This document shows positions 6,963 to 29,476 of a DNA stretch of 36,596 nt, in pieces. This DNA is from Thiomonas sp. FB-6 (GTDB lineage Bacteria; Pseudomonadota; Gammaproteobacteria; Burkholderiales; Burkholderiaceae_C): contig NZ_KB898503.1 of NCBI RefSeq assembly GCF_000377645.1, positions 1-36,596 of the forward strand, in the 5' to 3' direction. Within the stretch, counting starts at the first letter, position 1. Each line of letters begins with the position of its first letter. A program made the position numbers and the translations under genes. The notes beneath the pieces are model-generated. The model searched no databases. It was not told the origin of the DNA and was given only the letters and a program-made list of their open reading frames with translations.

Positions 6963-7638
6963 ATGACGATAGTGCTGGGTCAATCTCAAAGCAGCGGTTG
7001 CCGCAGGCCAAGCCGCGCGGACAACACTGACGATCTCGCTATGCGAAAGTTCGTCGCTCTGCCGGGGTCGATGTTCGATCTGAGGTCGGGAGTCGGGTTC
7101 GCGCGCAGTACCGATGAGACCGTCGAAGGAAACGAGACGCATTGAGGGAAGGGGCGGACCCGAAGGGGACTCGCGCCAGTTGAGCCAGGGCCGGACACAG
7201 ACCCGGAGCGCCGCCGCGAAGCACCCGCGGCCCGTGCACAATGCTCAGTCGGATCAACGCCCCTCGAAACTCTGTCGTCAGCCCCTCGGGCGCCGGCCCT
7301 GCGGTTTCGAGACTTTGTTGTCTCTTTCTACACTTTGTTGTCCGAAACCTCCCTCATTGCGCACCGCTCTCTTCGTTCCGGGTCCCCGCGATTCCGTGAA
7401 GAACCTTTTTTTGGGGGAGGCGGGAGACTTCCTTTGAGCTCCAGATGCAATGCACCCTGAAGCAGGGTGGCGGTGTCGTTTGGGTCGAGGTCCGACTCAA
7501 GCCGATCCGACGAGCAGACAGGTCTTGCCGAGCTGTCGCCGAGGTATTCGAGAATGCGATGGCTTCGATGATTTTCGTATTGGACGCGACGAACATGCCC
7601 TTGCTACCTTGTTCTCAAAACCAGCAAGGAGACAGGAC
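6963..7638. other. About 675-base intergenic stretch with a motif pair
   Basis: No gene with a recognisable domain lies here on either strand. Its one structured element is the ACTTTGTTGTC repeat pair at 7303-7349, described separately. Small frames around 7114-7437 and 7354-7596 have no recognisable features. The last 15 bases hold the AAGGAG ribosome-binding site of the next gene (near 7626-7631). Confidence 0.4.
7303..7349 (+). repeat. Two direct ACTTTGTTGTC motifs inside an inverted GGTTTCG/CGAAACC
   Basis: GACTTTGTTGTCTC (from 7311) and ACACTTTGTTGTCCGA (from 7330) are direct copies about 20 bp apart, enclosed by GGTTTCG (7303-7309) and CGAAACC (7343-7349). The same core, ACACTTTGTTRTCCGA, recurs at 12343-12363 and 29711-29734 and in reverse near 12381, 12493, 12696, 29751 and 29863. 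The 7303 copy faces right. Arrays of short repeats at element ends are typical of Mu/Tn7/Tn5053-type transposons, but no such transposase is in the window. Confidence 0.6.
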
Positions 7639-11692: not shown

Positions 11693-12530
11693 GCCGCCCA
11701 AGCGAGCGAGCCTGACGGGCTGTCATCCCGCGAAGCCGGAGGCGACGGATTCGAGATAGGCGATCGCGTCGTCTGTCCGGCCTTCTTGGACGACTTGCAG
11801 CAGGGTCTTGTGGCGGAACGCAGCAACGGGTTCGTTCTTGATGAAAAAGGCGAGTCGCTGCCGATCGGTTTGAATGGCCGCCGCGGCCGACAACAGCCTT
11901 ACGAGGTCGCGCAGCGTGGCCTGCAGGCGAGGCGACTCCGAGTGCATTCGCAAGGTGTTCCGATGCACGCCTGCAAGGGCCGCCAGCTCCTGCTGCCGCA
12001 TCTCGAGCAGCTCGGCGAGCCTGGAGGGGGACAGCCGGGAGGTGCCCGGCTCGCGCATGGACTCGAGCACATCAGCCGAAAGCGCTGGCATCGGGAGCCC
12101 CTTGGTGGATCTCAATGAGCACATATTACGCACAGAACACGCATACCGTGAGTCCATTCCCTTGGCCAATGGCGCTGGGCTCGCTCGATGCGCGGGCCGG
12201 CGCCAAGCAGACCCGACGGTCTCGAATGCGGCGTCAAGGGCGCGACCCGGCATCCTCAGCACCGGACAGGCAAAATCTCCCTATCGAACAACGCGCTTCA
12301 ACACTCTGTTCCCTCCCCGCAGGCGGAAAAAGAAGAGGCGTTTGACACTTTGTTATCCGACACCTTCCCGGAGGCGTCGCACAACAAAGTGTAGAAACCG
12401 CTTCAGAGGGGCTGGCGCCTCTCCGCCAGAGCTACAGGCCTGGCAGAGTTTGAAAATTCGCGGGGCGATGTGGGCGGCGGTCGCGGGGTACTGGACAACA
12501 GAGTGTCGAACGTCAGCGTCGGCATTGAGG
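11688..12530. repeat. Duplicated antitoxin/motif module, copy A
   Basis: This segment and 29036-29900 are alike throughout at roughly 85-90 % by eye, in the same orientation. Each carries the antitoxin gene, its promoter region, a segment with CAGGCAAAATCTCCCTATCG, and a convergent array of ACACTTTGTT motifs. Copy A begins at the IS21 remnant and fades after about 12530, although GCTATTGGAGTTCT at about 12721 also matches about 30029 in copy B. Boundaries are approximate because no alignment was run. Confidence 0.8.
11723..12091 (-). CDS. Orphan Xre/MbcA/ParS-family antitoxin, copy A
   Basis: A 122-residue protein. Residues about 20-60 form a Xre-like helix-turn-helix (SPSRLAELLEMRQQELAALA, GVHRNTLRMHSESPRLQATL) and residues about 65-120 a ParS/MbcA toxin-binding domain (DUF2384), ending FRHKTLLQVVQEGRTDDAIA, YLESVASGFAG. 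Such antitoxins normally precede a RES-domain NAD-degrading toxin and neutralise it. Here the frame that overlaps the stop (ATGA) is cut after about 12 codons by the IS21 remnant and no RES gene follows. AAGGGG precedes the ATG. A near-identical copy lies at 29072-29440. Family is confident; an orphan state is what is seen; present function is unknown. Confidence 0.85.
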   Translation of the reverse strand: MPALSADVLESMREPGTSRLSPSRLAELLEMRQQELAALAGVHRNTLRMHSESPRLQATLRDLVRLLSAAAAIQTDRQRLAFFIKNEPVAAFRHKTLLQVVQEGRTDDAIAYLESVASGFAG

Positions 12531-12712
12531 TTTTTCGTAGTAGAGCTCAGGGGAAAGCGAGCGAGTCGGAACGAGGCATTCGGCGTGCCCGCGAGACCGG
12601 AAGTCTCGCCATCCAGCTGCCGCATCATGCCTTGGTCGGCCACCACCTGCCGCGACTTCAGGCGCGCGTGGTCTGCAATCGTTGGGGTTGGCGGGCCAAC
12701 AAAGTGTCGAAG
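12297..12712. repeat. Array of ACACTTTGTT motifs, copy A
   Basis: Rightward copies: 12297-12314 (degenerate, ACACTCTGTT) and 12343-12363 (GACACTTTGTTATCCGAC). Leftward copies: 12381-12398 (ACAACAAAGTGTAG), 12493-12511 (ACAACAGAGTGTCGAAC) and 12696-12712 (CAACAAAGTGTCGAAG). The inner pair converge on an imperfect stem, CGACACCT (12358-12365) and AGGCGTCG (12372-12379), making a roughly 21-bp-armed palindrome from 12345 to 12394. The same order and hairpin recur at 29648-29883, but the sequences between differ more. No coding gene is recognisable from 12092 to 12825. Confidence 0.7.
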
Positions 12713-12825
12713 ATGTCCGCGGCTATTGGAGTTCTACTCGGCGGCTGACGCCGGGCAGTTTCGCTGCGATTCGACGTTAGGCTACCGCAGCCTCGTACAG
12801 GTCGAGCAAGCTCTGAAGGCGTAGG

Positions 12826-13139
12826 TCGGGGTAATGTCCCACCGAGTGGTGTAAGTCTTTGGCGCGGCGAGCTGCGAAGGGCGTAGCCCGGAGCAGCTCG
12901 CCGCGCGCCGGTCGTCCCTGGAGATGGGGGTGGCCATCGTGAAGTCCGGATAAGGTTGAGGTGCGACCCACCAATCCTTGTCTGAAGGAAACCACGATGA
13001 CCAACGCCACTATCGCATTGACCGAGCTCGCTGAGAAGGGGGCCGATGTCGACGTGCTGCGCCAGATGGTGCAGTTCATGGCCCAGCGCCTCATGGAGAT
13101 CGACGTGGAGGGGCGCTGCGGCGCCGGCTACGACGAGAA
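12826..13139 (+). mobile_element. IS256-family element, left part only
   Basis: The stretch GGGGTAATGTCCCACCGAGT at 12826 followed by GGTGTAAGTCTTTGG resembles an IS256-group terminal inverted repeat. About 150 bases of leader, including an internal inverted GCGGCGAGCTGC/GCAGCTCGCCGC pair, lead to a transposase start at 12997. The element is broken at 13139 by the IS21-type element. The missing part does not resume on the far side at 15877, so the right part was deleted or moved. Confidence 0.7.
12997..13137 (+). pseudogene. IS256-family transposase, first 47 codons
   Basis: The ATG at 12997 follows GAAGGAAACCACG. The product MTNATIALTELAEKGADVDV then LRQMVQFMAQRLMEIDVEGR and CGAGYDE is the conserved N-terminus of IS256-type (Transposase_mut) enzymes, whose full length is about 400 residues. 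The frame runs into the IS21 end at 13138-13140 and stops in the terminal repeats. The DDE catalytic domain is missing, so it is inactive. Confidence 0.85.
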
Positions 13140-13256
13140 TGCGTATTTCAGCCCATCGTGGACGGCATTTCAGGCTGATCGTGGACGGGCTTTCAGCGTG
13201 ATCGTGGACGGCGTTTCAGGCTGATCGTGGACGCTGTTTCAGCGTCATCGTGGACA
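13140..13256 (+). repeat. Five tandem 23-bp subterminal repeats of the IS21 element
   Basis: Five units of about 23 bp, each with TTTCAG near its start and ATCGTGGAC near its end, run head to tail; the middle bases alternate between GCTG and CGTG types. These are the transposase-binding terminal repeats of IS21-type elements. Similar units at 15743-15763 (direct) and 15813-15876 (inverted) form the other end. There are no spacers, so this is not a CRISPR array. Confidence 0.85.
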
Positions 13257-13320
13257 CCGGGAGGCGCGCAAGTGATTCCTTGGCCGGGCCTAGGCTGGTC
13301 GCTTTTTTCGAGCGACGCCG

Positions 13321-14862
13321 ATGCCCACAACAAGAGTCACGATGCGCCAGATCCGAGAGACGTTGCGCCTGCATCTGCAGGCTGGGCTGACCTACAGCGA
13401 GGTAGCCGGCGCGCTCAAGATTTCCAAGAGCGTGGTGGGCAAGTACGTGTTGCTGGCCCGGGTGGCCGGGGTGGACTGGGCGGTGACCCAGGCCCTGACC
13501 GACGCCGAGTTGGAGTCGCGGCTGTACCGCCCGCCGGTGCCGCGCGCCAGCTATCAGCTCGCGCCCGATTTCGCCGTCATCCACCAGGAGCTCAAGCGGC
13601 CCGGCGTGACGCTGATGCTGCTGTGGGAGGAGTACGCCCAGGGCAACGCGCTGGCGTACAAGTACACCAGCTTTTGCATCAAGTACCGCGAGTGGGCACA
13701 GACCCTCAAGCGCTCGATGCGCCAGGTGCATGTGGCCGGCGAGAAGCTGTTCGTCGACTACGCCGGGCAGACGGTGCCGATCACCGACCCGACCACCGGC
13801 GAGATCAGCGCTGCGCAGATCTTCGTGGCCACGCTGGGGGCGTCGACCTATACCTACGCCTTCGCCACGCCGCGCCAGACCACTGCCGACTGGATCGGCG
13901 CGCAGGTGCAGGCGCCGGAGTTCTTCGGCGGCGTGCCGCGGCTGATCGTGCCCGACCAGGCGCGCGCCCTGATCAAACACCCCGACCACTACGACCCGCT
14001 GCCCAACCGCACCTACGAGGAGTTCGCCAACCATTACGGCTGCGCGCTGCTGGCCGCACGCCCGGCGCATCCGAGAGATAAACCCAAGGTCGAAGGCGCC
14101 GTGCTCCTGGTCGAGAGGTGGATTCTGGCTCGGCTGCGCAACCGCCGCTTCTTCAGCCTGGTCGAGCTCAACGCGGCGATCGCCGCGCTCATTGCCGATC
14201 TGAACCTGCGCCCGTTCCAGAAGCTGCCCGGCTGCCGCCGCGACGCCTTCCTGGCCCTCGACGCCCCGGCGCTGTCGCCGCTGCCAGCCACGCGCTATGC
14301 GCTCGGAAGCTGGAAGCAGGCCAAGGTCCATGTCGACTACCACGTCGAGTTCGAGGGCCATTACTACAGCGTGCCGCACCGACTGGTCGGCAGCACGGTG
14401 GAGATGCGCGCGGGCGCCGGGCTGCTGGAGGTCTTCCACGCCAACCAGCGCGCGGCCTGTCACGCCCTGGACGCCCGGCGCGGCAAACACACGACCTTGC
14501 CCGAGCACATGCCGGCGTCGCACCGCGCGCACCTGGAATGGACCCCGGCCAAGCTCATCCAGTGGGGCCGCAGCGTCGGCGTGGCCGCCGCCGGCCTCGT
14601 GACCTGGCAGCTCGAGCACCGCCCGCATCCCGAGCAGGGCTACCGCGCCTGCCTGGGCCTCAAGCGCCTGGCACGCGAGTACACGCCGGCTCGCCTGGAA
14701 GCCGCCTGCGCCAGGGCTCTGGCGATCCGCTCGCCGACCTACGCCAGCGTGGCCTCGATCCTCAAGAGCGGACTGGACCGCCAACGTCCCTCGACCCCCA
14801 CGGCGGCGTCCACCGCCTTGCCCGAGCACGACAACGTGCGCGGCCCTGATTACTTCCACTGA
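13321..14862 (+). CDS. istA: IS21-family transposase IstA
   Basis: A full-length 513-residue transposase. It opens with an N-terminal helix-turn-helix (TMRQIRETLRLHLQAGLTYS, EVAGALKISKSVVGKYVLLA). The integrase core carries the DDE residues in LFVDYAGQTVPI (first Asp), GGVPRLIVPDQARALIK (second Asp; the usual VPDN is VPDQ here) and DKPKVEGAVLLVERW (Glu). The C-terminal part (WKQAKVHVDYHVEFEGHYYS) is the Mu-type beta-barrel DNA-binding region. ATG 13321 matches the ATG retained in the remnant at 11580. IstA catalyses strand transfer together with IstB, encoded 12 bases downstream. Confidence 0.95.
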   Translation: MPTTRVTMRQIRETLRLHLQAGLTYSEVAGALKISKSVVGKYVLLARVAGVDWAVTQALTDAELESRLYRPPVPRASYQLAPDFAVIHQELKRPGVTLMLLWEEYAQGNALAYKYTSFCIKYREWAQTLKRSMRQVHVAGEKLFVDYAGQTVPITDPTTGEISAAQIFVATLGASTYTYAFATPRQTTADWIGAQVQAPEFFGGVPRLIVPDQARALIKHPDHYDPLPNRTYEEFANHYGCALLAARPAHPRDKPKVEGAVLLVERWILARLRNRRFFSLVELNAAIAALIADLNLRPFQKLPGCRRDAFLALDAPALSPLPATRYALGSWKQAKVHVDYHVEFEGHYYSVPHRLVGSTVEMRAGAGLLEVFHANQRAACHALDARRGKHTTLPEHMPASHRAHLEWTPAKLIQWGRSVGVAAAGLVTWQLEHRPHPEQGYRACLGLKRLAREYTPARLEAACARALAIRSPTYASVASILKSGLDRQRPSTPTAASTALPEHDNVRGPDYFH

Positions 14863-14874
14863 AGGAGATGACCG

Positions 14875-15612
14875 ATGATCAAGGAACACACGCTCAACCA
14901 ACTGCGCGAGCTGCGCCTGGACGGCATGGTCCACGCCCTGACCGACCAGGCCAGCAGCACGGCGGCCGCCGCGCTGGGCTTCGACGAGCGGCTCACGCTG
15001 CTCGTGCAAAGCGAGATCGTCTGGCGCGACGACCGCCGCTTGCAGCGCCTGCTCAAAGCCGCCAAGCTCAAGGTCTCCGCGGCCTGCGTGGAGGACATCA
15101 ACTGGCGCGTCAGCCGCGGCCTGGACCGCCACCTCGTCGCCAACCTGGCCGGCGGCGACTGGCTGCGCCACGCGCAGAATTTGCTCATCACGGGCGCCAC
15201 CGGTTGCGGCAAGACGTGGTTGGGTTGCGCCCTGGCGCATCAGGCCGCGCGCTCGGGCTTCAGCGTGCTGTACACGCGTGCCGGGCGCCTGTTCGACGAG
15301 CTGCAGGTCGCCCACGGCGACGGCAGCTATGCCCGGCGCATGACGCAGCTGGCCAAGCTTGATTTGCTGCTGATTGACGATTTCGCGATCGCGCCTATGG
15401 GTGCGGCCGAGCGCAACGACCTGCTGGAGCTGCTCGACGACCGCGTCGGCAGCCGCTCCACGCTGATCACCAGCCAGCTTCCGGTGAAGGCCTGGCATAC
15501 CTACCTCGACGACCCCACGCTGGCCGACGCCATCCTCGATCGCATTGTGCACAGCAGCCACAAGATCGAGCTCAAAGGCCCATCGCTGCGCGAGAAGGAC
15601 AAAGACCAATGA
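14875..15612 (+). CDS. istB: IS21-family helper ATPase IstB
   Basis: A 245-residue DnaC/IstB-type AAA+ ATPase. The N-terminal helical region (TLNQLRELRLDGMVHALTDQ) precedes the ATPase domain with Walker A GATGCGKTWLG (near residue 106) and Walker B LDLLLIDDFAI (near 160), then sensor-1 LITSQLPVKAWH and an Asp-Arg finger region ILDRIVHSS. It assists IstA in target selection and strand transfer. GAAGGAGATG lies just upstream of the ATG, and the gene is cotranscribed with istA. The length is normal and no damage is seen. Confidence 0.95.
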   Translation: MIKEHTLNQLRELRLDGMVHALTDQASSTAAAALGFDERLTLLVQSEIVWRDDRRLQRLLKAAKLKVSAACVEDINWRVSRGLDRHLVANLAGGDWLRHAQNLLITGATGCGKTWLGCALAHQAARSGFSVLYTRAGRLFDELQVAHGDGSYARRMTQLAKLDLLLIDDFAIAPMGAAERNDLLELLDDRVGSRSTLITSQLPVKAWHTYLDDPTLADAILDRIVHSSHKIELKGPSLREKDKDQ

Positions 15613-15755
15613 AGACCGAGACCGCCACCGTGCACGTCGCCGAACACGCCTTACCCACGGCGGCGGCCGGTCCGTCGCAAGCGCCGTCCGCCGCCGTGGA
15701 TAAGGCTGCGCAGAACCCCATCACGAAACGCTTCGCGACAGCCGTTTCAGGCTGA
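15609..15755 (+). CDS. Possible small IS-borne ORF overlapping istB stop
   Basis: ATGA overlap: the ATG at 15609 lies in the istB stop region and opens 48 codons (MKTETATVHVAEHALPTAAA..., rich in Ala, Thr and Pro) ending inside the right-end repeat at 15755. Coupling by overlap is plausible, but I recognise no domain and the composition is what GC-rich filler would give. It may be only a read-through frame. Confidence 0.25.
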   Translation: MKTETATVHVAEHALPTAAAGPSQAPSAAVDKAAQNPITKRFATAVSG

Positions 15756-15876
15756 TCGTGGACGACTGACTAATATTGAACCCATCGCTTGCGCGCACCC
15801 CCGGCGCGTCCTCGATCGCGCTGAAACGCCGTCCACGATCAGACTGAAACAGGCGTCCACGATCGCTGAAATGCGC

Positions 15877-16338
15877 AGACGTCACACCGGTCATCAGCGA
15901 CCGCATGGCTGGCACCGGCAGCGAGCTCGCGCTGTAGACATCCGCTCAGCGCGCCGACGATGCCGGCGACCGTCGGGTGCAGTATTCCGGGCGCCGCCCG
16001 TCAGGCGGTGCAATGCCCGTTTGCCCAATCGTCAGCCTTTGGGCCAACGTCGTCACCTCGGCCGGAACAGCCCTTGGGCATGATCAACTGTGACGATCGC
16101 TATGTATGGGCCAGCGGTCATCGGCAACAACCGGGGCCTGAGCGTAGGCTTCCAGCGCCTGCGAACTGGCGCTCTGGGCCCTGAGGCGCCACACGTCGAC
16201 GTAATCGCGTGCCTTAAAGTTCTCGCTTGTGCGCGGACACAGCCATCTGGAGGACGATCACAGCGGAGCACACGCGTCGGTGGGGGGACCTCATGCCGAT
16301 TGAGGCGAGGAGCACGGGCAAAGGCTGGATCTGGTGGA
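15877..16338. other. About 460 bases without a recognisable gene
   Basis: Between the IS21 right end and the stop of the HEPN-motif gene, short frames exist on both strands but none has a recognisable domain. A rightward 212-codon frame from 16090 runs opposite the HEPN-motif gene and is treated as its shadow. The first bases should be the flank originally interrupted by the IS21 element; they do not continue the IS256 transposase. Confidence 0.4.
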
Positions 16339-17691
16339 TCAGACAGGCTCAAGGAGATCAACACAAGAAACGGCGGTCTGCCTGTTGATCAGTGCGATCG
16401 ACAGGTCGGCTCGAGCGACCAGCTCAAGCGGTCGTGCGGCCTGCACATAGCGCCCGTGTGTAATGCGGTCTATGCCGGCGCCAGCGAGCCGCGCTACGGT
16501 TCGCAGACTCGCTTTCAGCGCCACGCTATTAAGCCGTCCACCATGGAGAATGAGATTGCGCTGACGATAGAGGCGATGGAACGCCTCGGCGATCGCTTCC
16601 TTGATCGTCGTGAGCTCCGACGACGGATCCTGCAAAAGCTTTCGTACGCGTGCCACTGCGGCCTTATCGGCCCATGCCTGCATGGTGGGGAATTGGTTTT
16701 GCAGGATCAACTGTGCTGTAGCACGTGAACGTTCGCGATTAGAGGCTAGACCGGCAAGCTGTGCGGCCACCGCGGCGTCTGCTTCCGCTGCCCGATAGGA
16801 CAGAGCGGTCAGTTCTGCGCGCGGGAATGAACATGCGACGAGAACCGCCAGGTTGTCAGCAGCCGTTGCGCGGTCGCCGGGATCTGCCAATAGGCCTTCG
16901 ATCGCACCCCACCCGCCGGCGATTGCCGCGGGCGGAGAACTCTCATCAAGATGCGCCAACAGTTCGATCGCAGCATCCAAACTATCGCTCGGGGTCACGG
17001 AGAATATGCGCCCCTCGCGATCCAGCTCCTTGACCCTGACGCCCCGAGATTCGCTAGCGTGCCTCACGCGTTGTGGGTCGCCGGCGACCCATAGCCAGGG
17101 CAGCCGTTCAAGTGGCTTGCCGAGCGCGATGCGCGCGCGAGCCGCGAATCGGTCGGAAATCTCGCGTGCCGCCTGCGCTGCACCGGTTCCGTCTCTAGCT
17201 TCGACGGAGAGAAGGATGCCGACAGACGCCCTGACATCTGAGGTGTCGAACCCATGCGCAGTGAGCCAGCCGGTCACGGCGCGGCCCTGAAGCCAATCTC
17301 CCGGAATGCCATGCGCGAGCGTTGGCTTGCGTCGGAACGCCAGCAGCACTTCGAAGGAGCGTGGAGGACTGCGCGTCAGCTCAGCATGCAGATCCTCGCA
17401 AATGTCGGCGAGCATCACACCATGCGCCGACGTATTGTGGCGCCGGATGAGGCCATGAAGATGCTCGGATGAGAAGCCAGCATCAAGCATATGCGAGGCG
17501 ATGCTGCGTCCGAAGCGCTCGACCGTAAAGTTCGGCGTCGTCACGACCCTGGCCCACCGTTGCATGTAGCTCGCCTCCAACAGCTCGGCGACCTGGGCCA
17601 CGGCGTAGTGCGCCGGTCCGTCTGCCTTGGGAACGTTCGTGATCTGTTGGCGAAGGTGCCCCTTCTCTGCCGTGCTAAGCGCAGGGTCCAA
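16339..17691 (-). CDS. Large HEPN-motif protein, main (C-terminal) part
   Basis: From a TTG at 17689-17691 the frame encodes 450 residues with no signal peptide or membrane segment. Near residue 376 it has RQRNLILHGG, the R-N-x3-H motif (R378, N379, H383) at the core of HEPN RNases and ApeA-type C-terminal domains, inside helices FHRLYRQRNLIL and SVALKASLRTVARLAGAG. The rest is mainly helical and unrecognised. In the same frame the upstream 68 codons (17701-17907) are separated only by one TGA and three sense codons, so this is probably the bulk of a ~520-residue protein split by a nonsense change. HEPN proteins often act in anti-phage defence; that role is inferred. The neighbours are mobile elements. 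Confidence 0.6.
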   Translation of the reverse strand: MDPALSTAEKGHLRQQITNVPKADGPAHYAVAQVAELLEASYMQRWARVVTTPNFTVERFGRSIASHMLDAGFSSEHLHGLIRRHNTSAHGVMLADICEDLHAELTRSPPRSFEVLLAFRRKPTLAHGIPGDWLQGRAVTGWLTAHGFDTSDVRASVGILLSVEARDGTGAAQAAREISDRFAARARIALGKPLERLPWLWVAGDPQRVRHASESRGVRVKELDREGRIFSVTPSDSLDAAIELLAHLDESSPPAAIAGGWGAIEGLLADPGDRATAADNLAVLVACSFPRAELTALSYRAAEADAAVAAQLAGLASNRERSRATAQLILQNQFPTMQAWADKAAVARVRKLLQDPSSELTTIKEAIAEAFHRLYRQRNLILHGGRLNSVALKASLRTVARLAGAGIDRITHGRYVQAARPLELVARADLSIALINRQTAVSCVDLLEPV

Positions 17692-17700
17692 GCCAGCTTT

Positions 17701-17907
17701 TCATTGAAGGGCGCTGCAGATTTTGCGGACTGCCCCATCACTGAGCGTTCCTTCACGCAACACTGCACACGCCTCGTGTAGTTCATGCAGTCCGAGGACC
17801 AAGCCGATGCTCCAGAGCGATCGATTCCAAGGCGGTGGGTTGGGCGAGAGAAATTCGAGTAGCCGGCCCAGGGCCAAGGCGTCTTGCGGATTGACAGAAG
17901 TGAGCAC
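17701..17907 (-). CDS. N-terminal part of the HEPN-motif protein, before an in-frame TGA
   Basis: A GTG at 17905-17907, after an in-frame TAG, opens 68 codons: LTSVNPQDALALGRLLEFLS, then PNPPPWNRSLWSIGLVLGLH, ELHEACAVLREGTLSDGAVR and KICSALQ, then TGA. The next codons, KAGLDPALSTAEKGHLRQQ, continue naturally in the same frame, so both pieces look like one helical protein broken by CAA-TGA-AAA. No good ribosome-binding site precedes either the GTG or the TTG beyond the stop. It could instead be a real small protein translationally coupled to the larger one across 9 bases. A sequencing error at 17701-17703 is also possible. Confidence 0.5.
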   Translation of the reverse strand: MLTSVNPQDALALGRLLEFLSPNPPPWNRSLWSIGLVLGLHELHEACAVLREGTLSDGAVRKICSALQ

Positions 17908-17976
17908 GATGTCGTACTATTGCGACCAAGGCTTTCGATGCCAACAGTCTAAGGGGCAATGACCCGCTGACGCGAG

Positions 17977-17992
17977 AGAACTTAAAAGTTCT
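17977..17992. promoter_or_regulatory. Palindrome upstream of the HEPN-motif gene
   Basis: AGAACTT (17977-17983), AA, AAGTTCT (17986-17992) is a perfect 7-bp inverted repeat, 70 bases before the GTG at 17907. It is A/T-rich in a GC-rich setting, so it could be an operator or part of a promoter for the HEPN-motif gene. No clear -35/-10 pair was fixed. Confidence 0.35.
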
Positions 17993-18022
17993 TACGCCCT
18001 GCGGCTCTGCGCCCCAACCTTC

Positions 18023-18050
18023 AATCGGCCCTGCACATGCAGGGCCGATT
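18023..18050. terminator. Strong 13-bp perfect hairpin
   Basis: AATCGGCCCTGCA (18023-18035) and TGCAGGGCCGATT (18038-18050) are exact reverse complements around CA; TCATTT follows on the plus strand. It has the form of an intrinsic terminator working rightward, yet no rightward gene ends here. It may end an unannotated small RNA starting near 17960, block read-through into the HEPN-motif gene from the right, or be left from a mobile element. Confidence 0.6.
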
Positions 18051-18275
18051 TCATTTCGACAGGTGTCGCGACTTAGACGCCCTGGCCATGGTTCTACTGT
18101 CCAACGTGACGGTGTTCGGCAGGGCGATCGCGCAACAACCGGCACTAAGAGACTTCAGGGACTTTCTCCTCGCGCGGATGCTGACAGTCAAGTTGGGCGA
18201 ACCGTCGCCTATCGATGCGACTCCCGACATCCCATTGACCAGCAACGCCCACCTTCTCCTGGTGCCGCACCCTCA

Positions 18276-18409
18276 GGTGCGGTCACGGCCCGCACGCGGG
18301 CGCGGCTTCAGTTGCAAGGATGCCTGCTGCGCCACGACATTCGCTACCCCGGCAAGACGGCGTGGACCAAGACCATTGGGCGCCGGCTGGCAACAGTGGG
18401 CTTCGAGGT
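18276..18409 (+). pseudogene. IS110-family transposase fragment
   Basis: About 45 codons read AVTARTRARLQLQGCLLRHD, then IRYPGKTAWTKTIGRRLATVGFE. This matches the segment of IS110-type (DEDD/serine) transposases where a R.RaqlqLk.fLLRhg.rYpGkt.Wt motif leads toward the central coiled part. Both ends of the gene are missing. The surrounding 17908-18776 interval otherwise holds no recognisable gene, apart from a weak leftward frame at 18526-18780. Confidence 0.65.
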
Positions 18410-18525
18410 AAGTCGATCACGGGGCCTCAATCTTCTGGCGGTTTGACCGGTCGGACCTCAGGAGACTGGTCGTCGGCCAAAGCGAGCACTGGCCGCCGCG
18501 TGTGGCAACGACGGCAATGGGATGG

Positions 18526-18780
18526 TCAGGCGTCACTGAGGCGGTCCGCCTCTGAGCGGCTTCGTTCCGCGCTGGCCGGGCGCATCTCATGCCCCTTGCG
18601 CATAGCGGTGTCACTTGGTTCTCGAAGTGAGGTACAGACGTCGACGCGGAAGCCAATTCGCTGCATCATCGGCGGGACGCCCTTATCGTCGCCATGCAGC
18701 ATGATATTCGCGGGGCGCAACGCAAACTCAAGCCTTGGCGCCATGCGCTCGATGTGCTTCAGCTGGCACGTCGCGCTCAC
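18526..18780 (-). CDS. Weak ORF after the LysR gene, unknown
   Basis: A GTG at 18778-18780 overlaps the LysR stop (GTGA) and opens 84 codons beginning SATCQLKHIERMAPRLEFAL and RPANIMLHGDDKGVPPMMQR. The first 65 residues look protein-like (regular hydrophobic spacing) and the overlap suggests coupling, but I recognise no family and the last 20 residues are Arg/Ser/Glu-rich as in random frames. It may be a fragment or an accident. Confidence 0.25.
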   Translation of the reverse strand: MSATCQLKHIERMAPRLEFALRPANIMLHGDDKGVPPMMQRIGFRVDVCTSLREPSDTAMRKGHEMRPASAERSRSEADRLSDA

Positions 18781-19682
18781 CCGCCCGCGAGCAAGTGGCG
18801 TAGATCGATCCCGCGAATCAGCTCGATGGTCTCTCGCACAAGGCGCGTGGCCGGGCGCGCATGGGGAACCGCCAACACCAACCGGTTGCGGATCTCCGGG
18901 TGGGAAATGCGCGCGCTGCGCAAGCCGACGTGCTGTCCGTCGGCGGCGCGCACTGAGCTCTGGGGCAGCACCGAGTAGCCGAGCCCGCGCGCCACGAGCG
19001 CCAGAGCTGTTTGCACCGCTCCGACCTCGGCGACCACTTTCAGCTCGATCCCCAGTGGCCGCACCTTGGCCTCGACTAGGTTACGGATCGCATTGGGGGC
19101 GCTGGGCAGCACCAGGGGATAGTCGCTGAGTTCGCGCAGCGCAAGCTTCGCGGGCAGCTCGGGCGCCTGTGGCGGGCCGATGAGCAGCAGGGGCTCGCGC
19201 AGCAACAGTTCTAGATCAAGGCGTGCGGAGTGATGGGGGTCGAACAGCACGGCGACGTCCAAGCGCCCGGCGATCAGCCCCTCCTGCAGCGAGTGGCTCA
19301 TGCCTTCGGCGATGGTGATCAGCGCGCGCGGGAAGCGCTCGCGGAATCCCTCGACCAGTGGGGCCGCCAGCAGAGGGGCCAGGCGCGGAGGCAGGCCGAC
19401 TAGCACCCTGCCGCGCGGGCTGATCTGCATCGAGCGTAGTTCGTTGCGCGCGACCTCCGCCTGCTCCAGCAGTGCCTTGGCATGTGCTAGCAGTGCCAGA
19501 CCTGCCTCCGTGGGAGCGACGCCACGCCCGGTTCGCTGCAGCAGGCGCTGGCCGAGGTCGGATTCGAGCTGCGCCAGGTGGCGGCTCAGACTGGGCTGGG
19601 CCAGTCCAATCTGCGCGGCGGCGCGACTGAAGCCACCGGCCTCCACCACTTGAACGAAATAGTGCAGCTTGAGTAGGTCCAC
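18777..19682 (-). CDS. LysR-family regulator beside the CoA-transferase genes
   Basis: A 301-residue LysR protein of normal length. The HTH (MDLLKLHYFVQVVEAGGFSR, AAAQIGLAQPSLSRHLAQLE, SDLGQRLLQRTGRGVAPTEA) is a textbook N-terminus; the PSLSRHLAQLE recognition helix and GVLVGLPPRLAPLL-type entry to the effector domain resemble the Nac/CynR/CatR group. The GTG at 19680-19682 is used because the HTH starts immediately; no ATG fits this frame. It lies 42 bases downstream of the CoA-transferase B subunit on the same strand and could be cotranscribed with it. Its target is unknown; a second regulator (IclR) heads this locus. Confidence 0.85.
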   Translation of the reverse strand: MDLLKLHYFVQVVEAGGFSRAAAQIGLAQPSLSRHLAQLESDLGQRLLQRTGRGVAPTEAGLALLAHAKALLEQAEVARNELRSMQISPRGRVLVGLPPRLAPLLAAPLVEGFRERFPRALITIAEGMSHSLQEGLIAGRLDVAVLFDPHHSARLDLELLLREPLLLIGPPQAPELPAKLALRELSDYPLVLPSAPNAIRNLVEAKVRPLGIELKVVAEVGAVQTALALVARGLGYSVLPQSSVRAADGQHVGLRSARISHPEIRNRLVLAVPHARPATRLVRETIELIRGIDLRHLLAGG

Positions 19683-19724
19683 GGTGCAATGCCTCGCTTA
19701 GCCCGGCCGCCGCGTACCCGGAAC

Positions 19725-20363
19725 TCAGGCCGGGTGCAGCGTCACCGCCGTGACGCGTTGCAGCGCTTCCAGGGTTCCCGGCTCAGCCAGTTCGAGCACA
19801 CGCAGTCCGCCGTCGGCGATCTCGAGCACGGCCAGATCGGTGTAGATGCGATTCACGCAACCAACCGCGGTCAGCGGGTAGCTGCACTCGCGCACGACTT
19901 TACAGTGCCCGTCCTTGCCCAGGTACTCCATCATCACCCAGGTGTTGCGGGCGCCTACCGCCAGATCCATCGCGCCGCCCACCGCAGGGATCGCTCCCGG
20001 CGCGCCGGTGTGCCAGTTGGCCAGGTCGCCGCGAGCGGAAACCTGGAAAGCTCCGAGCACGCAGTAGTTGATGTGCCCGCCGCGCATCATTGCGAAGCTG
20101 TCGGCGTGGTGGAAGAAGCAGGCTCCCGGCAGCGCGGTCACCGGCTGCTTGCCGGCGTTGATCAAGTCGGGGTCTTCCTGGCCCGGCGCGGGCGCAGGAC
20201 CCATGCCGAGAAGGCCGTTCTCGGTGTGCAGGATGATCTCCCGATTCGGGTCGACGTGGTTGGCCACCAGCGTAGGCAGGCCGATCCCAAGGTTGACCAC
20301 TGCGCCCTCGGGAATGTCGGCGGCCAGGCGCCGCGCCATCTGTTCACGCGTCCATTTCGGCAT
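19725..20363 (-). CDS. 3-oxoacid CoA-transferase, subunit B
   Basis: A 212-residue beta subunit of a two-chain CoA-transferase (PcaJ/ScoB/AtoA type). The catalytic glutamate is E48 in IILHTENGLLGMGP, the conserved SENG-type motif. VNLGIGLPTLVANHV near residue 23, FAMMRGGHINYCVLGAFQV and WMMEYLGKDG-like (NTWVMMEYLGKDGHCKVV) are standard landmarks. Such enzymes move CoA from succinyl-CoA to a 3-oxoacid such as 3-oxoadipate or acetoacetate. Its start overlaps the end of the A subunit by 20 bases, so the two are coupled. Gene symbols pcaJ or scoB cannot be separated by sequence alone. Confidence 0.9.
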   Translation of the reverse strand: MPKWTREQMARRLAADIPEGAVVNLGIGLPTLVANHVDPNREIILHTENGLLGMGPAPAPGQEDPDLINAGKQPVTALPGACFFHHADSFAMMRGGHINYCVLGAFQVSARGDLANWHTGAPGAIPAVGGAMDLAVGARNTWVMMEYLGKDGHCKVVRECSYPLTAVGCVNRIYTDLAVLEIADGGLRVLELAEPGTLEALQRVTAVTLHPA

Positions 20364-21048
20364 CTCGCCCTCCCGGAATGTGGTGTCGCGGCAGATGCAC
20401 GACGTGGTCGACGTAAAGGCCCGGCGTGACCACGCATTCGGGGTCGATGGCGCCGAGTTCGGCTACCTCGTGCACGGCGGCCACGGTCAGGCGCGCCGCG
20501 GCGGCCATGATCGGCCCGAAATTGCGCGCGGTCTTGCGATAGAGCAGATTGCCCCAGCGGTCGCCGCGCTCGGCCTGGATCAGCGCCAGGTCCGCGTGCA
20601 GCGGATACTCGAGCACGTACATGCGCCCGTCGATCTCGCGGGTTTCCTTGCCCTGGGCGAGCGTCGTGCCGTAGCCGGTGGGGGTGTAGAAGGCGCCGAT
20701 GCCGGCGCCCGCGGCGCGGATGCGCTCGGCCAGGTTGCCTTGCGGCACCAGTTCGAGTTCGATGCGCGCGCTGCGGTAGAGCTCGTCGAACACCCAGGAG
20801 TCGGTCTGGCGCGGAAAGGAGCACACGATCTTGCGCACGCGGCCCGCAGCGAGCAGCGCGGCCAGTCCTGTGGATCCGTTGCCGGCATTGTTGTTGACCA
20901 CCGTGAGGTCCCGCGCGCCATGCGCCAGCAGCGCGTCGATCAACTCCACCGGCTGGCCGGCGCTGCCGAAGCCGCCGATCATCACAGTGGCGCCGTCGCG
21001 CACGGACTGCAGCGCCGCCTCGGCCGAGGTGGCGAACTTGTCGATCAT
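20344..21048 (-). CDS. 3-oxoacid CoA-transferase, subunit A
   Basis: The 234-residue alpha subunit matches PcaI/ScoA. The family signature GGFGSAGQPVELIDAL (residues 25-40) is complete; NNNAGNGSTGLAALL, VPQGNLAERIRAAGAG, FYTPTGYGT and ADLALIQAERGDRWGNLLYR follow in order. ATG 21048 is chosen, 7 bases after GGGGGT, because MIDKFATSAEAALQSVRDGA is the conserved start; a longer in-frame ATG would cross the operator at 21067-21103. It is divergent from IclR with the operators between. With subunit B it forms the active heterotetramer. The substrate may be 3-oxoadipate given the catabolic neighbours, but that is inference. Confidence 0.9.
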   Translation of the reverse strand: MIDKFATSAEAALQSVRDGATVMIGGFGSAGQPVELIDALLAHGARDLTVVNNNAGNGSTGLAALLAAGRVRKIVCSFPRQTDSWVFDELYRSARIELELVPQGNLAERIRAAGAGIGAFYTPTGYGTTLAQGKETREIDGRMYVLEYPLHADLALIQAERGDRWGNLLYRKTARNFGPIMAAAARLTVAAVHEVAELGAIDPECVVTPGLYVDHVVHLPRHHIPGGRDAEMDA

Positions 21049-21066
21049 CGGGACCCCCGGGGTAAA

Positions 21067-21103
21067 ATGTTCGAAATCCGAACATATGTTCGTTCCAAGA
21101 ACA
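21067..21103. promoter_or_regulatory. Two IclR-type palindromes between scoA-like and iclR genes
   Basis: ATGTTCG-N5-CGAACAT (21067-21085) is a perfect 7-bp inverted repeat. TGTTC-N7-GAACA (21087-21103) follows immediately; AACATATGTT sits between them. GTTCG...CGAAC repeats resemble known IclR-family operators. They fill the space between the divergent start codons (21048 and 21104), so IclR could control the transferase genes, itself and perhaps the rightward catabolic genes. The second palindrome touches the IclR start codon. Confidence 0.7.
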
Positions 21104-21934
21104 ATGTACCCCAGCACAAGCCGAATCTCAACGCACGACCATGCCGACGGCGCGCCCGTGCCGGGCGACGCCTACGTGCAGTCCTTCGCGCGAGGCATCG
21201 CGGTGATGCGCAGTTTCGGCGCGCAGTACCCGCGCCAGACCATGAGTCAGGTCGCGCAACGCACCGGTCTGACCCGCGCCGGCGCCAGGCGCATCCTGCT
21301 GACCCTGCAGCAACTGGGCTACGTGCGATGCGACGGGCGCTGGTTCGAACTCACCGCAAAGGTGCTGGATCTGGGCTTCGCCTACCTGAGCTCGCTCGAT
21401 CTGTGGCACCTGGCCGAGCCGCTGATGCAGGAGTTCTCGCGCGAGGTCGGCGAGTCGTGTTCGGCCGCCACGCTGGACGGACACGACATCGTCTACGTGC
21501 TGCGCGTGGCCTCGCACAAGATCATGTCCCTGAACCTCGGCGTGGGCAGCCGGCTGCCCGCGTGGTGCAGCTCGATGGGCCGGGTGCTGCTGGCCGGCCT
21601 CGGCGACGACGAGGTGGCCCGGCTGCTCGCGCAGGCACGGCCGCTGGCGCGCACTCCACGCACCGTGCACCAGCCGGACGCGCTGCTCGAGATCGTGCGC
21701 ACCGTGAGGCAGCAGGGCTGGGCACTGGTGGACGAGGAACTCGAGGAGGGGCTGATCTCGCTGGCGGTGCCGATCCGCGCGCGCGACGGTCGGGTGCTGG
21801 CCGCCATCAACGTCAGCGGCCAGGCCCGTCGCACCCCGCGCGCGGTGATGCTCGAGGCCATGCTGCCGCGCCTGCGGCACACCGCCGGCGCGATCGAGCA
21901 GTTACTGGCCTCGCGCTCCGGGCCGGGCGCATGA
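21104..21934 (+). CDS. IclR-family transcriptional regulator (PcaR/PobR-like)
   Basis: A 276-residue regulator. The winged helix is at about residues 25-85: YVQSFARGIAVMRSFGAQYP, TMSQVAQRTGLTRAGARRIL, LTLQQLGYVRCDGRWFELT. The IclR effector domain follows (LVLDLGFAYLSSLDLW-like segment, SCSAATLDGHDIVYVLRVAS, SRLPAWCSSMGRVLLAGL, GLISLAVPIRARDGRVLAAI). SFxRGLxVL and the AxCxSxGxxLLA pattern are typical of the PcaR/PobR/CatR-like subgroup that senses aromatic acids or oxoadipate. ATG 21104 directly follows a palindrome; a leader upstream is therefore very short. The longer open frame back to 20831 lies over the scoA-like gene and is not used. Confidence 0.9.
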   Translation: MYPSTSRISTHDHADGAPVPGDAYVQSFARGIAVMRSFGAQYPRQTMSQVAQRTGLTRAGARRILLTLQQLGYVRCDGRWFELTAKVLDLGFAYLSSLDLWHLAEPLMQEFSREVGESCSAATLDGHDIVYVLRVASHKIMSLNLGVGSRLPAWCSSMGRVLLAGLGDDEVARLLAQARPLARTPRTVHQPDALLEIVRTVRQQGWALVDEELEEGLISLAVPIRARDGRVLAAINVSGQARRTPRAVMLEAMLPRLRHTAGAIEQLLASRSGPGA

Positions 21935-22039
21935 CCACGCGCGCCTGCCTTGCGGCTTCAGCAGCCATTCGGTTGGAACATAGCTGATATAGGGCGTATG
22001 CGCTTTTTCGCGCATGACAAAGCCGGAAGAATGGGCGGC

Positions 22040-22879
22040 ATGCACCTTGAACTGCCCGCCCTGGCCTGCAACGCCCATTGCCATGTGTTCGGCCCGCGCG
22101 AACGTTTTCCCTATGCGGCCGACGCAGCCTACGTGCCGCAGGCGGACGCTCCGGCCGAGGCGCTGATCGCGCTGAACGATTCGCTCGGCCTGCAGCGCTG
22201 CGTGGTCGTGCAGTCGGCCTGCCACGGCTTCGACAACCGTGCCACCGCCGACGCGCTGCTGCGTCGCCCGCAGGGCTACCGCGGCGTCGCGCTGCTGCCC
22301 ACCGACACGCCGCTCGCCGAGTTGCGCCGACTGGACGCGCAGGGCTTTCGCGGGGTTCGATTCAACTACTACCGTCACCTCGGCGCGGAAGCCGGGCTGG
22401 ACGAGGTGCTTGCCATGTCGCATCGCCTAGCCGACGTCGGCTGGCACCTGCAGATCCACGCCAGCAGCGACCGCTTGGCCGAGATCGGCGCCACGCTGCG
22501 CGACGCCGCGGTACCGGTGGTCGTCGACCACATCGGTCGCGTCGGCGCGTCGCTGGGGCCGCGGCACGAGCACTTCCTCGCCCTCGTGGATCTGCTGCGC
22601 GACCGGCGCTGGTGGGTCAAGCTCAGCGGCATCGACCGCATCAGCGCGCTGGGCCCGCCCTACGACGACGCCATCGGCTTCGCCGGCCTGCTGATGCGTG
22701 ATTTCGAGGACCGGGTGCTGTGGGGCAACGACTGGCCCCACCCCAACCACGCCGGGCCCATTCCCGACGAGCGTCAGTTGGTCGACTCCATCGCCCGCTT
22801 CGCTCCGGACGAGACACAGCGTCGCAGCCTGCTCGTGTCCAACCCGCAACGTCTGTATCGCTTCGGCGATGCCGTCTGA
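22040..22879 (+). CDS. LigI-like amidohydrolase (2-pyrone-4,6-dicarboxylate hydrolase family)
   Basis: A 279-residue amidohydrolase_2 protein. ACNAHCHVFGPRERFPYAAD matches the start of the 2-pyrone-4,6-dicarboxylate lactonase LigI (A.CHVFGP...fP), with the two metal or substrate histidines (H13 and H15). GFRGVRFNYYRHLG, VPVVVDHIGRVG and WGNDWPHPNHAGPIPDERQL (with the catalytic Asp region) complete the barrel. LigI opens the pyrone ring in syringate/protocatechuate degradation without metal. ATG 22040 is preferred (GGAAGA about 11 bases before); an ATG at 22031 is also possible. Start of a rightward operon with the SDR and TctC genes. Pyrone, or another lactone, as substrate is inferred. Confidence 0.8.
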   Translation: MHLELPALACNAHCHVFGPRERFPYAADAAYVPQADAPAEALIALNDSLGLQRCVVVQSACHGFDNRATADALLRRPQGYRGVALLPTDTPLAELRRLDAQGFRGVRFNYYRHLGAEAGLDEVLAMSHRLADVGWHLQIHASSDRLAEIGATLRDAAVPVVVDHIGRVGASLGPRHEHFLALVDLLRDRRWWVKLSGIDRISALGPPYDDAIGFAGLLMRDFEDRVLWGNDWPHPNHAGPIPDERQLVDSIARFAPDETQRRSLLVSNPQRLYRFGDAV

Positions 22880-22904
22880 TTCGTATCGATTCCCCGCGCC
22901 GGCC

Positions 22905-23723
22905 ATGCACTCCGAAACTTCCCAGCACCCACGATTCGAAGGAAAGGTCGCGATCGTCACCGGCGCCGGCTGCGTCGGTCCAGGTTGGGGCAACGGGCGC
23001 GCGATCGCGGTCCGCCTGGCGCAGGAGGGTGCCAGGGTGTTAGCAGTGGACCGTCGAATCGAAAACCTTCAGGGCACCCTGGAAATGGCACGCGGCGCGG
23101 CAGGGGACATGCAGGTGCATGCCGCCGATGTGACTTCCTCGCAGCAAGTTGCCGAACTGGTGCGGCGCTGCGAAGAACTGTTCGGCGAGCCCAACGTCCT
23201 GGTCAACAACGTGGGTGGCTCGGCCCACGGCGGACCGGTGGAACTCGATGAAGAGGTCTGGGAGCGCCAACTGGCGCTGAACCTGACCAGCGTGTTCCTG
23301 GGGTGCAAGCACGTGATTCCGCGCATGCAGGCGCGCGGCGGCGGCTCTATCGTCAACGTCGCGTCGACCTCGGGACTGCGCTGGACGGGTGCCGCGCAGG
23401 TTGCCTACGCGTCGGCCAAGGCCGGCGTGATTCAGCTGTCGCGCGTGGTCGCGGTGCAGCATGCCGCGCAGCGCATCCGGGTCAACACCGTCGTCCCCGG
23501 GCAGTTGCATACCCCGATGGTGGAAGCACGCCTGGCCGGACAGCGCGCCGGCGGCGACGTCGACGCGCTGCTGGCCCAGCGTCAGCGCCGCATCCCCTTG
23601 GGCTTCATGGGCGACGGCAGCGACACCGCCGCCGCCGCGCTGTTCCTCGCCAGCGACGAGGCACGCTTCATCACTGGTACCGAAATCGTGGTCGACGGCG
23701 GCATGACCGTGCGCTGCGACTGA
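22905..23723 (+). CDS. Short-chain dehydrogenase/reductase (SDR)
   Basis: A 272-residue classical SDR. The cofactor loop is VAIVTGAGCVGPGWGNGRAI (TGxxxGxG with a short insertion), then NVLVNNVGGSAHGG (NNxG), catalytic Ser in IVNVASTSGLRWTG, and YASAKAG (YxxxK). C-terminal FITGTEIVVDGGMTVRCD is usual for the family. An acidic residue after beta-2 (VLAVDRRIENL, D) suggests NAD rather than NADP. ATG 22905 lies 26 bases after the LigI-like gene; an ATG at 22869 overlapping that gene is also in frame. It may oxidise a hydroxy intermediate of the pathway; the substrate is unknown. Confidence 0.9.
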   Translation: MHSETSQHPRFEGKVAIVTGAGCVGPGWGNGRAIAVRLAQEGARVLAVDRRIENLQGTLEMARGAAGDMQVHAADVTSSQQVAELVRRCEELFGEPNVLVNNVGGSAHGGPVELDEEVWERQLALNLTSVFLGCKHVIPRMQARGGGSIVNVASTSGLRWTGAAQVAYASAKAGVIQLSRVVAVQHAAQRIRVNTVVPGQLHTPMVEARLAGQRAGGDVDALLAQRQRRIPLGFMGDGSDTAAAALFLASDEARFITGTEIVVDGGMTVRCD

Positions 23724-23791
23724 ATCCCCAACGCGCCTCGCAGGGGCTCGAGGCGCGAACTCTTACCCATATAGCCTCCGGGAGACAAACC

Positions 23792-24754
23792 ATGCCAAGG
23801 ATCATCCGATTCGCACTGTGCGGCCTTGCCGCCTTTACATTGTTCGCGGCTTCGGCGCAGGCGCGCGTTGTGCACATCATCGTGGCCTTCAGCGCCGGAG
23901 GCCCCGTGGACACGGTCGCGCGAGCGCTGGGCCAGGAGCTGGCGAGCAAGCTCGACTGCACCGTGGTGGTGGATAACAAGCCCGGCGCCAATGGCGCGAT
24001 CGGCGCGCAGGCCCTGCTGCAAGCGCCGGCCGACGGCAACACGCTGTGGCTGACCAGCGTGGGCGCCGCGGCGATCAATCCTTCGCTGTACCCCCACCTG
24101 GGCTACAACATGCGCAAGGATTTTGCCCCGGTGTCCCTCGTCGTCGACAACAACGAACTCCTGGTGGTCAACAAGAACAACCCGGCGCAGAACATCGAGC
24201 AGTTCGTCGCCGAGACCAAGAAGCGCGCCGAGCCCACCCCGATGGCTTCCTCGGGCGTGGGCAGCGTGCCGCACCTTGCCATCGAGCAATTGCGCGAAGC
24301 GACCGGGGCCAAGCTCCTCAACGTGCCCTACCGCGGCGCGGCGCCGGCGATCAACGCCGTGCTGGCCGGGCAGGCTGCCGGCTTCTTCGGCGACATCCCG
24401 GGCCTGATGAGCTTCGTGCGCGCCGGCCAGCTCAAGGCCCTAGGCCTGGCCGCGACCAAGCGCACCCCGGTGCTGCCCGAGGTCAAGACCCTGGCCGAGC
24501 AGGGTGTCAAAGGAGTCGACACCGACAACTGGTACGGTCTATTCGTCGCGGCCAAGACCCCGGCGGCCACCGTCGAGGCACTGAACAAGGCCGTGGTGGA
24601 ATCGCTGGACGATCCGCAACTGCACACCAAGCTGCTCGCCCTGGGTGCGGTTCCGGCGCCGTCGACTCCGCAGCACCTGGAGAAGCTGCTGGCCAGCGAT
24701 GCCGCGAAGTGGGCCAAGTTGATCCACCGCGAGCACATCACTCTGGGCAATTGA
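23792..24754 (+). CDS. Bug/TctC-family periplasmic solute receptor
   Basis: A 320-residue tripartite tricarboxylate transporter receptor. Residues 1-24 are a signal peptide (MPRIIRFALCGLAAFTLFAA then SAQA, cleaved before RVV). Mature IIVAFSAGGPVDTVARALGQ, VVVDNKPGANGAIGAQALLQ, YRGAAPAINAVLAGQ (the substrate-binding loop) and KTLAEQGVKGVDTDNWYGLF are diagnostic of the Bug family greatly expanded in Bordetella-like Burkholderiales. GGGAGA lies 7 bases before the ATG. Cognate membrane subunits are TctB and TctA at 25926-27915. It probably binds a carboxylate, likely an aromatic or lactone-derived acid in this locus. Confidence 0.92.
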   Translation: MPRIIRFALCGLAAFTLFAASAQARVVHIIVAFSAGGPVDTVARALGQELASKLDCTVVVDNKPGANGAIGAQALLQAPADGNTLWLTSVGAAAINPSLYPHLGYNMRKDFAPVSLVVDNNELLVVNKNNPAQNIEQFVAETKKRAEPTPMASSGVGSVPHLAIEQLREATGAKLLNVPYRGAAPAINAVLAGQAAGFFGDIPGLMSFVRAGQLKALGLAATKRTPVLPEVKTLAEQGVKGVDTDNWYGLFVAAKTPAATVEALNKAVVESLDDPQLHTKLLALGAVPAPSTPQHLEKLLASDAAKWAKLIHREHITLGN

Positions 24755-24767
24755 GGACGAGCCGGCC

Positions 24768-25295: not shown

Positions 25296-25332
25296 GCCAC
25301 GGGCCGGCATCCATTCTCGGGAGGCACAGCGC

Positions 25333-25863: not shown

Positions 25864-25925
25864 GCACACGGCAGGGCGAGCCGACGCAGAAGCGGCACGC
25901 TGGGACCACTGGAGAGGAGATCATC

Positions 25926-26381: not shown

Positions 26382-26385
26382 GGCG

Positions 26386-28791: not shown

Positions 28792-28793
28792 GC

Positions 28794-28838: not shown

Positions 28839-29000
28839 TCACGGCGTGGCCTCTCCTGAACGCCGGCCTCGCTGTGACTACCTCATCGACCGCTGAGCAC
28901 ACCAGGGCCGTCATTGCCGCGGCGGGGTGTCAGTGCCCGCTCAGGCCGAGGTCCTGCCGCTCATGGCACCCATCAAGCGATCGCTCGACCGCTAAACTGG

Positions 29001-29440: not shown

Positions 29441-29476
29441 CGGGAGCTCCTTGGTGGATCTCAAGGAGCACATATT

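Follow-up and report, generated by a model that had tools for sequence, protein, structure and literature searches.

Convergent motif arrays in a Thiomonas accessory region read as junctions of Tn7-like transposons stacked before an MBL-fold hydrolase gene

Motif arrays and their neighbours in the window

The window, by which is meant the whole stretch of DNA analysed, is 36,596 nt from Thiomonas sp. FB-6 (GCF_000377645.1, NZ_KB898503.1, positions 1-36,596, forward strand; contig label C33). By Pfam, run over part of the ORFs, its recognised cargo comprises an MFS transporter, a lyase, LysR, CoA-transferase, IclR, amidohydrolase, SDR, TctC/TctA, a TPP enzyme, an aldehyde dehydrogenase and a ketopantoate-reductase-like product, together with istAB and an IS transposase. 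If as many as two mismatches are tolerated, the motif ACTTTGTTRTCCG occurs 10 times in the window against 0.58 expected, a number reached in none of 100 shuffles. At 12298-12710, and again at 29649-29879, these motifs form arrays that converge on a palindrome, so that the preliminary description was accurate in placing motifs in rightward and then leftward order around a stem at 12297-12712. Its further claim that the module is present twice, the other copy being at 29036-29900, was confirmed by alignment, with the second module 89% identical to the first over ~0.8 kb. A third array, left-only, at 7264-7343, came from scanning with a weight matrix that was built from the motifs of the window and of another contig of the same genome, C18, was later extended with motifs of related loci, and was run over the retrieved loci.

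To the left of each of the two converging arrays is an orphan antitoxin-like gene (Table 1). Such a gene had been reported in the preliminary description, as of ParS/MbcA type, and is there at both; the sole Pfam match of the protein at E<=0.001 is to Xre-like-HTH (E=2.2e-4), under the curated cut-off. Beyond the two module copies on C33, the FB-6 genome has the antitoxin gene and the left half of the module once more, on C18. Is the arrangement more widespread? In a collection of genome contigs the doubled motif was found in six stretches, two from Thiomonas (one being T. delicata NZ_LT592170.1) and four from MAG contigs; there were no matches to it in viral contigs, and a distant search of a plasmid collection gave no match to the array region, 12230-12760. 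A scan of the genus with one mismatch allowed yielded some match in 25 of 28 genomes, single matches being at the level of a reversed-pattern control.

Table 1. Features of the window; ends and elements are named as in the text
Feature	Position	Strand	Remarks
Element Z left end	7264..7350	+	Motifs 7264-7280, 7307-7323, 7327-7343; inferred terminus 7350; located by weight matrix, the motifs being spaced 43/20 bp as in other left ends
Orphan Xre/DUF2384-type antitoxin-like gene by element A left end	11723..12091	-	122 aa; 207 bp left of array
Element A left end	12298..12365	+	Motifs 12298-12314, 12342-12358; inferred terminus ...CGACACCT at 12365
Target duplication CCCGG between elements A and B	12367..12371	.	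Identical to the C18 5-mer between left end and MBL gene, on a different contig
Element B right end	12372..12710	-	Inferred terminus 5'-AGGCGTCG at 12372; motifs 12379-12395, 12493-12509, 12694-12710
Element B	12372..29736	.	17.4 kb, with a right end and a left end; cargo (Pfam, part of ORFs) IS21-type istAB, CoA-transferase, IclR, amidohydrolase, SDR, TctC/TctA, toxin-antitoxin-like pair, antitoxin
Second orphan antitoxin-like gene, by element B left end	29072..29440	-	122 aa; 207 bp left of array
Element B left end	29649..29736	+	Motifs 29649-29665, 29693-29709, 29713-29729; inferred terminus 29736
Target duplication CTCGG	29737..29741	.	One mismatch to CCCGG
Element C right end	29742..29879	-	Inferred terminus 5'-AGGTGCCG at 29742; motifs 29749-29765, 29863-29879; third motif not found here; element C runs from 29742 to the contig end

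Geometry of the ends and the gene that they face

What are these arrays? Very probably each module is where two Tn7-like transposons meet in a stack at a single attachment site, a reading for which the conserved geometry of the ends, 5-bp duplications, linked tnsABC and tniQ genes, use of the same target gene in other genera, and loci of that gene without arrays are the grounds. The window is made up of parts of four stacked elements, Z, A, B and C, with B complete, and what looked like a hairpin is two inverted termini meeting. As to the preliminary assertion that the hairpin keeps its stem, a palindrome is present in both window arrays, but in some junctions elsewhere (G308a, G414c; judged by eye) the pairing is mostly gone.

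In the left array (L) as many as three motifs point the same way, at offsets of ~0/-20/-64, and in the right array (R) as many as three point the opposite way, at 0/+114/+~313, with both spacings fixed across the Thiomonas loci; the 114/~200-bp spacing of R is common to the window, G407, G414 and G032. Frequently L occurs without R. In eight Thiomonas junctions, the two of the window, two in G414 and one each in G308, G403, G407 and G032, R is 33-38 bp from L, and judging from spacing three of the eight have lost one inner L motif, among them the element A left end, where the 44-bp spacing points to loss of one of the two inner motifs. After the Z left end no right end belonging to a following element could be recognised; it may have been lost or have diverged. 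Each of the three L ends in the window has the octamer KGCAMAAT (at 7235, 12269 and 29620) exactly 29 bp ahead of its first motif, and by a post hoc count a slightly wider pattern occurs upstream of the gene considered next at 13 of 24 loci versus 8 of 1610 tiles, 12 of the 13 being 124-129 bp before the ATG; the octamer may be an outward -10 box or a further protein site.

The gene in question encodes a gloB-like MBL-fold hydrolase, with hydroxyacylglutathione hydrolase its best NCBIfam match, below the cut-off of that family. It is present in 24 of 28 Thiomonas genomes at 26 loci, two of them cut by contig ends, leaving 24 that can be evaluated. At 21 of these a motif is found <=120 bp upstream of the ATG, versus 7 of 1140 control tiles, a comparison in which the matrix was partly trained on MBL-upstream sites and the control stretches include two arrays; two loci with a different array type, G411 and contig C82 of G158, contributed no motifs to the training set. 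Nineteen of the 21 have two or three L-spaced motifs facing the gene, G399 has a single motif and G401 has R spacing, and with the exception of G399, a misfit, the inferred terminus is 7-12 bp before the ATG at all (20/21). Genes on the array side differ between most genomes, though a left flank is common to G413, G420 and G399, with ~7.7 kb between it and the MBL gene in G399. The region before the MBL gene is an insertion hot spot. The array-less loci of G413 and G420 fail to align over the last ~200 bp, and that they provide no clean empty site with a single target copy counts against the reading of stacked transposons. When nucleotide identity was followed along the MBL gene, the 5' coding region did not stand out as a recognition site. 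Two assemblies, G412 (L130, L148) and G158 (L133, L149), have two MBL genes each with its own array, the second of G158 being cut by a contig end, and either true duplication or mixed bins could be responsible.

Could the array simply belong to the host, as an operator or promoter of the MBL gene that was duplicated together with its neighbourhood? At most Thiomonas loci it is conserved immediately ahead of the MBL start codon, and the octamer, interpreted post hoc as an outward -10 box, could be fitted to such a role. That reading is nevertheless highly unlikely, as there is no motif within 120 bp upstream of the gene at 3 of the 24 loci (G413, G420 and G419), the neighbours on the array side mostly change from genome to genome, arrays of different sequence type occupy the same site, a right-type end is in that place in G401, and both the 5-bp duplications and the tnsABC/tniQ genes described below are linked to arrays. 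The second array type (e.g. TTTTGAGACTTTGTTTCGC), with an L spacing of 0/-19/-63, is at the MBL gene in G411 and G158 (L159, L160) and is also present behind the G032 R (L170:5584-5663), from which it follows that several element types share the site. In G401 (L158), where it is the R-type end that faces the MBL gene, neighbouring ORFs match by eye those near the G032 R.

Both ends of a single element were located in G032. Its L is at the MBL gene (C4:566731-566807), and a matching R with the same 114/198 spacing is 79 kb away, so that the pair bounds a 79-kb element; scanning revealed no R in the first 40 kb from L, and it was a single-motif match 79 kb off that located it. This R abuts the L array of another element type. 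At several L-MBL loci no R was found in the retrieved stretches, which was counted against the stacking of Tn7-like elements.

Target duplications, transposition genes and other genera

If two termini meet in each junction, is the DNA just outside them duplicated? In G032 the 5 bp outside R and the 5 bp outside L are both CCTCT. In all, eight genomes have both sides readable, and exact agreement of the 5-mers in seven of them (G032 CCTCT, G308 CTTGC, G403 TCCAC, FB-6 itself CCCGG, G264 TATAA, G383 ACACC and G187 CCTGG) is to be set against none in 56 cross-genome pairs. The FB-6 pair consists of the 5-mer left of R at 12372 and that right of the C18 L. Not counted were G407, in which no MBL gene was detected, G401, of which one end was read, another G414 junction (likewise no match) and the FB-6 junction at 29737 (4/5). 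The boundaries were fixed after the first cases had been seen, with one rule, that L ends CCT and R begins AGG, fitting all Thiomonas loci and one rule fitting G383 and G187. Three points were counted against stacked Tn7-like elements: in G414 neither junction (TCCCC, CCACT) equals the MBL-side 5-mer CCTGC, in FB-6 and G403 the two duplication sides are on different contigs, and the duplication of element B itself agrees at four of five positions (CCCGG/CTCGG).

The position of the repeats bears on another possibility, that the module of 0.4-0.85 kb is itself a small non-autonomous, MITE-like element, bounded by the outer motifs and with the antitoxin gene as passenger. There are two full copies in the window, 89% identical, and convergent arrays do resemble the two ends of an element. 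However, the breakpoints and 5-bp repeats are between L and R, not outside them, L arrays without R are found at MBL loci, and the antitoxin gene is absent beside most L arrays, any homologue being detected in only 7 of 28 genomes, all of which makes a MITE-like unit very improbable. The preliminary notion of a mobile ~0.85-kb unit, or of a non-autonomous element with antitoxin cargo, thus has to be given up, as left ends exist without right ends, the duplications are between the arrays and the antitoxin gene is part of the left element. The other option raised there, two abutting ends of larger transposons with the character of Tn7-type transposase ends, is strongly supported by geometry, duplications and linked tnsABC/tniQ genes; the 5-bp duplications and tnsB-like neighbours that it was suggested be looked for are both present, the former exact in seven of eight genomes and the latter accompanied by TnsA, TnsC and TniQ/TnsD genes linked to the ends, and rather than being a segmental duplication without parallel the copies have many other occurrences, with the motifs at transposon ends.

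Of the 28 Thiomonas genomes, 9 have TniQ matches. C18 has, ~11 kb from L and on its element side, a partial tnsB, tnsC and tniQ, the contig starting inside tnsB and having no tnsA; in G032, ~8-15 kb away on the same side, are tnsA, tnsB, tnsC and tniQ, and in G158 a tniQ is 3.5 kb from L. The operon is directed towards L in C18 and away from L in G032, which was counted against the stacked-transposon reading. The G032 TnsB matches Tn7 TnsB (7pik) at E=2.4e-19 over residues 135-582, and the C18 partial TnsB is 77% identical to it; TnsC matches Tn7 TnsC (8glu) at E=8.8e-25, with Pfam AAA_22, and TniB in G264; TnsA of G264 matches Tn7 TnsA (1t0f) at E=1.5e-9, with a homologue common to G032 and G383. 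For the TnsA and TnsB proteins scanned there was no Pfam match. TniQ, whose homology between G032, C18 and G264 (37-81% identity) extends over the whole protein, matches Tn7 TnsD at E=2e-5, with Pfam TniQ over cut-off in all three and a TnsD domain just over cut-off only in G264. Within the window, element B included, no tns gene was recognised; this was counted against stacked Tn7-like transposons, and it follows that the window elements are decayed or, as is inferred, mobile in trans.

The window does have genes of another transposon, istAB at 13321-15612, where istB is confirmed by Pfam and istA by Mu-transpos_C_2. A fragment at 12961-13224, which we take to resemble the N-terminus of an IS256-type transposase, stops just before the istAB element. 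Ends of IS21-family elements can bear repeated motifs, and the arrays might be imagined to be such ends. This is extremely improbable, in that different repeats, belonging to the istAB element itself, are close by (seen by eye) and the arrays elsewhere adjoin tnsABC/tniQ and the MBL gene.

Use of the same target extends beyond Thiomonas. A TnsB search of 399 genomes of the family gave matches in eight, two of them Thiomonas, and in two other genera a TnsB ~33-39% identical to that of G032 is encoded by elements that end at the MBL gene. One such element, in G264, carries tnsABC and tniQ; it ends at the MBL orthologue and has TATAA as its duplication. In G383 and G187, which share a genus, the array that ends at the orthologue is spelled differently, the other end is ~49 and 64 kb away, respectively, and the TniQ gene adjoins the TnsC gene. 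Close to their tns genes (L174, L178) there are ORFs of 99-124 aa that by eye resemble the start of the DNA polymerase beta clamp, and these may be carried by the element. G375 has tniQ 0.4 kb from the MBL gene and no motif recognised upstream of that gene. Counted against stacked Tn7-like insertion were the TnsB relatives G078 and G332, with no motif in the retrieved stretches (the MBL start in G332 could not be placed), and G075, G047 and G325, with no array or motif before the MBL gene and with TniQ relatives far away or on another contig.

Insertion beside the MBL gene, known relatives and the orphan antitoxin

How could several elements come to accumulate at one spot? TnsB would bind the ~17-bp motifs, of which each end has three, and a selector of TniQ/TnsD type would send insertion to a position 7-12 bp before the start codon of the gloB-like MBL gene, the element being oriented left end towards it. 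The sequence recognised is presumed to be on the gene side and so to outlast each insertion; because it is kept, the next element would again insert beside the MBL gene. The expected outcome is a left end, a 5-bp duplication and a right end in succession, hairpin-like and with convergent arrays. Stacking of this type before one conserved gene explains the pile-up of accessory-gene islands at a single spot: the variable region before the MBL gene in Thiomonas is attributable to Tn7-like insertion, and the presence of the window's catabolic genes in stacked units to the stacking of elements. As the junctions mark boundaries, they allow islands to be delimited, and perhaps put in order, also after loss of the transposase genes.

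The machinery is of a known kind, to which this lineage, together with its attachment site, appears to add new members. Shared with Tn7 and Tn7-like transposons are homologues of TnsA, TnsB, TnsC and TnsD, asymmetric arrays of ~20-bp sites at both ends, a 5-bp target duplication, oriented insertion beside one conserved gene, large varied cargo and adjacency of elements. Termini are a point of difference, the inferred ones being 5'-AGG...CCT-3' in Thiomonas in contrast to TGT...ACA, which is usual, though not universal, in Tn7-like transposons; that they start AGG (Thiomonas, G264) or TGG, and not TGT, was counted against assigning the stack to Tn7-like elements. TnsA endonuclease is a feature of Tn7 itself and not of all its relatives. 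With the Tn5053/Tn402 family (TniABQR) there is likeness in the Rve-type transposase, AAA+ regulator, TniQ and repeated end motifs, but whereas the features of that family include the TniR resolvase, TGT ends and insertion into plasmid resolution sites, the lineage here has a TnsA homologue, a chromosomal gene as target and termini that are not TGT.

That some Tn7-like elements have non-TGT ends is recorded in PMC11406308, which also covers the 5-bp duplication and the known att genes; the latter, in its Table 1, are glmS, yhiN, comM, parE and tRNA genes, and attachment immediately before the start of an MBL-fold gene of gloB type differs from these. Insertion just 5' of a start codon makes this an unusual-looking site. 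Arrays of ~20-bp repeats at both ends are treated as a general Tn7-like feature, and adjacent insertion is mentioned, in PMC8649781 (section 6 for the latter). No MBL or gloB-like att site for Tn7-like elements was found in the main-text portions that made up the literature searched, and the words 'metallo' and 'hydrolase' are absent from the available parts of PMC8649781 and PMC10293859. A term search of the text of two Thiomonas papers, PMC4589449 and PMC2829063, found no mention of Tn7 or tns.

There remains the orphan antitoxin. At E<=1e-10 its homologues number 10 matches in 7 of 28 genomes. Seven are close (76-100%): five full-length ones (two in the window and one each in C18, G032 and G414) and a truncated one in G418 are beside L ends, and one, in G415, is not. 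The three weaker homologues are in G416 (~3 kb from its L), on C3 of FB-6 (elsewhere) and in G410. In the window each antitoxin belongs to the element on the left of the junction. For relatives in other genera a RES-domain gene follows (by Pfam for one, by tblastn for three more): with the G292 RES protein as tblastn query at E<=1e-3, a homologue was found in all three other-genus relatives searched (L021-L023), and in none of five Thiomonas sequences (the window, L112, L113, L094 and L100). The relatives L020-L023 are in Xre-RES pairs; no array was seen by eye in L020 and L021, and the other-genus relatives are of no help in explaining the arrays. Type I-F3 CASTs with the Xre regulators RtaC/RtbC are similar in that the element carries an Xre-type gene, but the Xre-like protein here is more like an orphaned antitoxin of the Xre-RES type. 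According to PMC11406308, some of the CRISPR-associated Tn7-like elements are regulated by Xre proteins, and a comparable regulatory role for the orphan antitoxin is, by analogy, only a suggestion.

A bolder proposal, tentative and on present indications rather unlikely, would combine these strands: that a Tn7-like lineage homes to the translation start of the gloB-like MBL gene and inserts between gene and promoter, that the L end gives the gene a new promoter, that the orphan Xre-RES-type antitoxin 0.2 kb from the L end has been co-opted as a regulator of transposition, and that the stacked ends record the order in which islands arrived. Close to the element B left end there is, in addition, a toxin-antitoxin-like pair (28211-28791), of which the HI1420-type antidote is over cut-off and the Gp49-like member below it.
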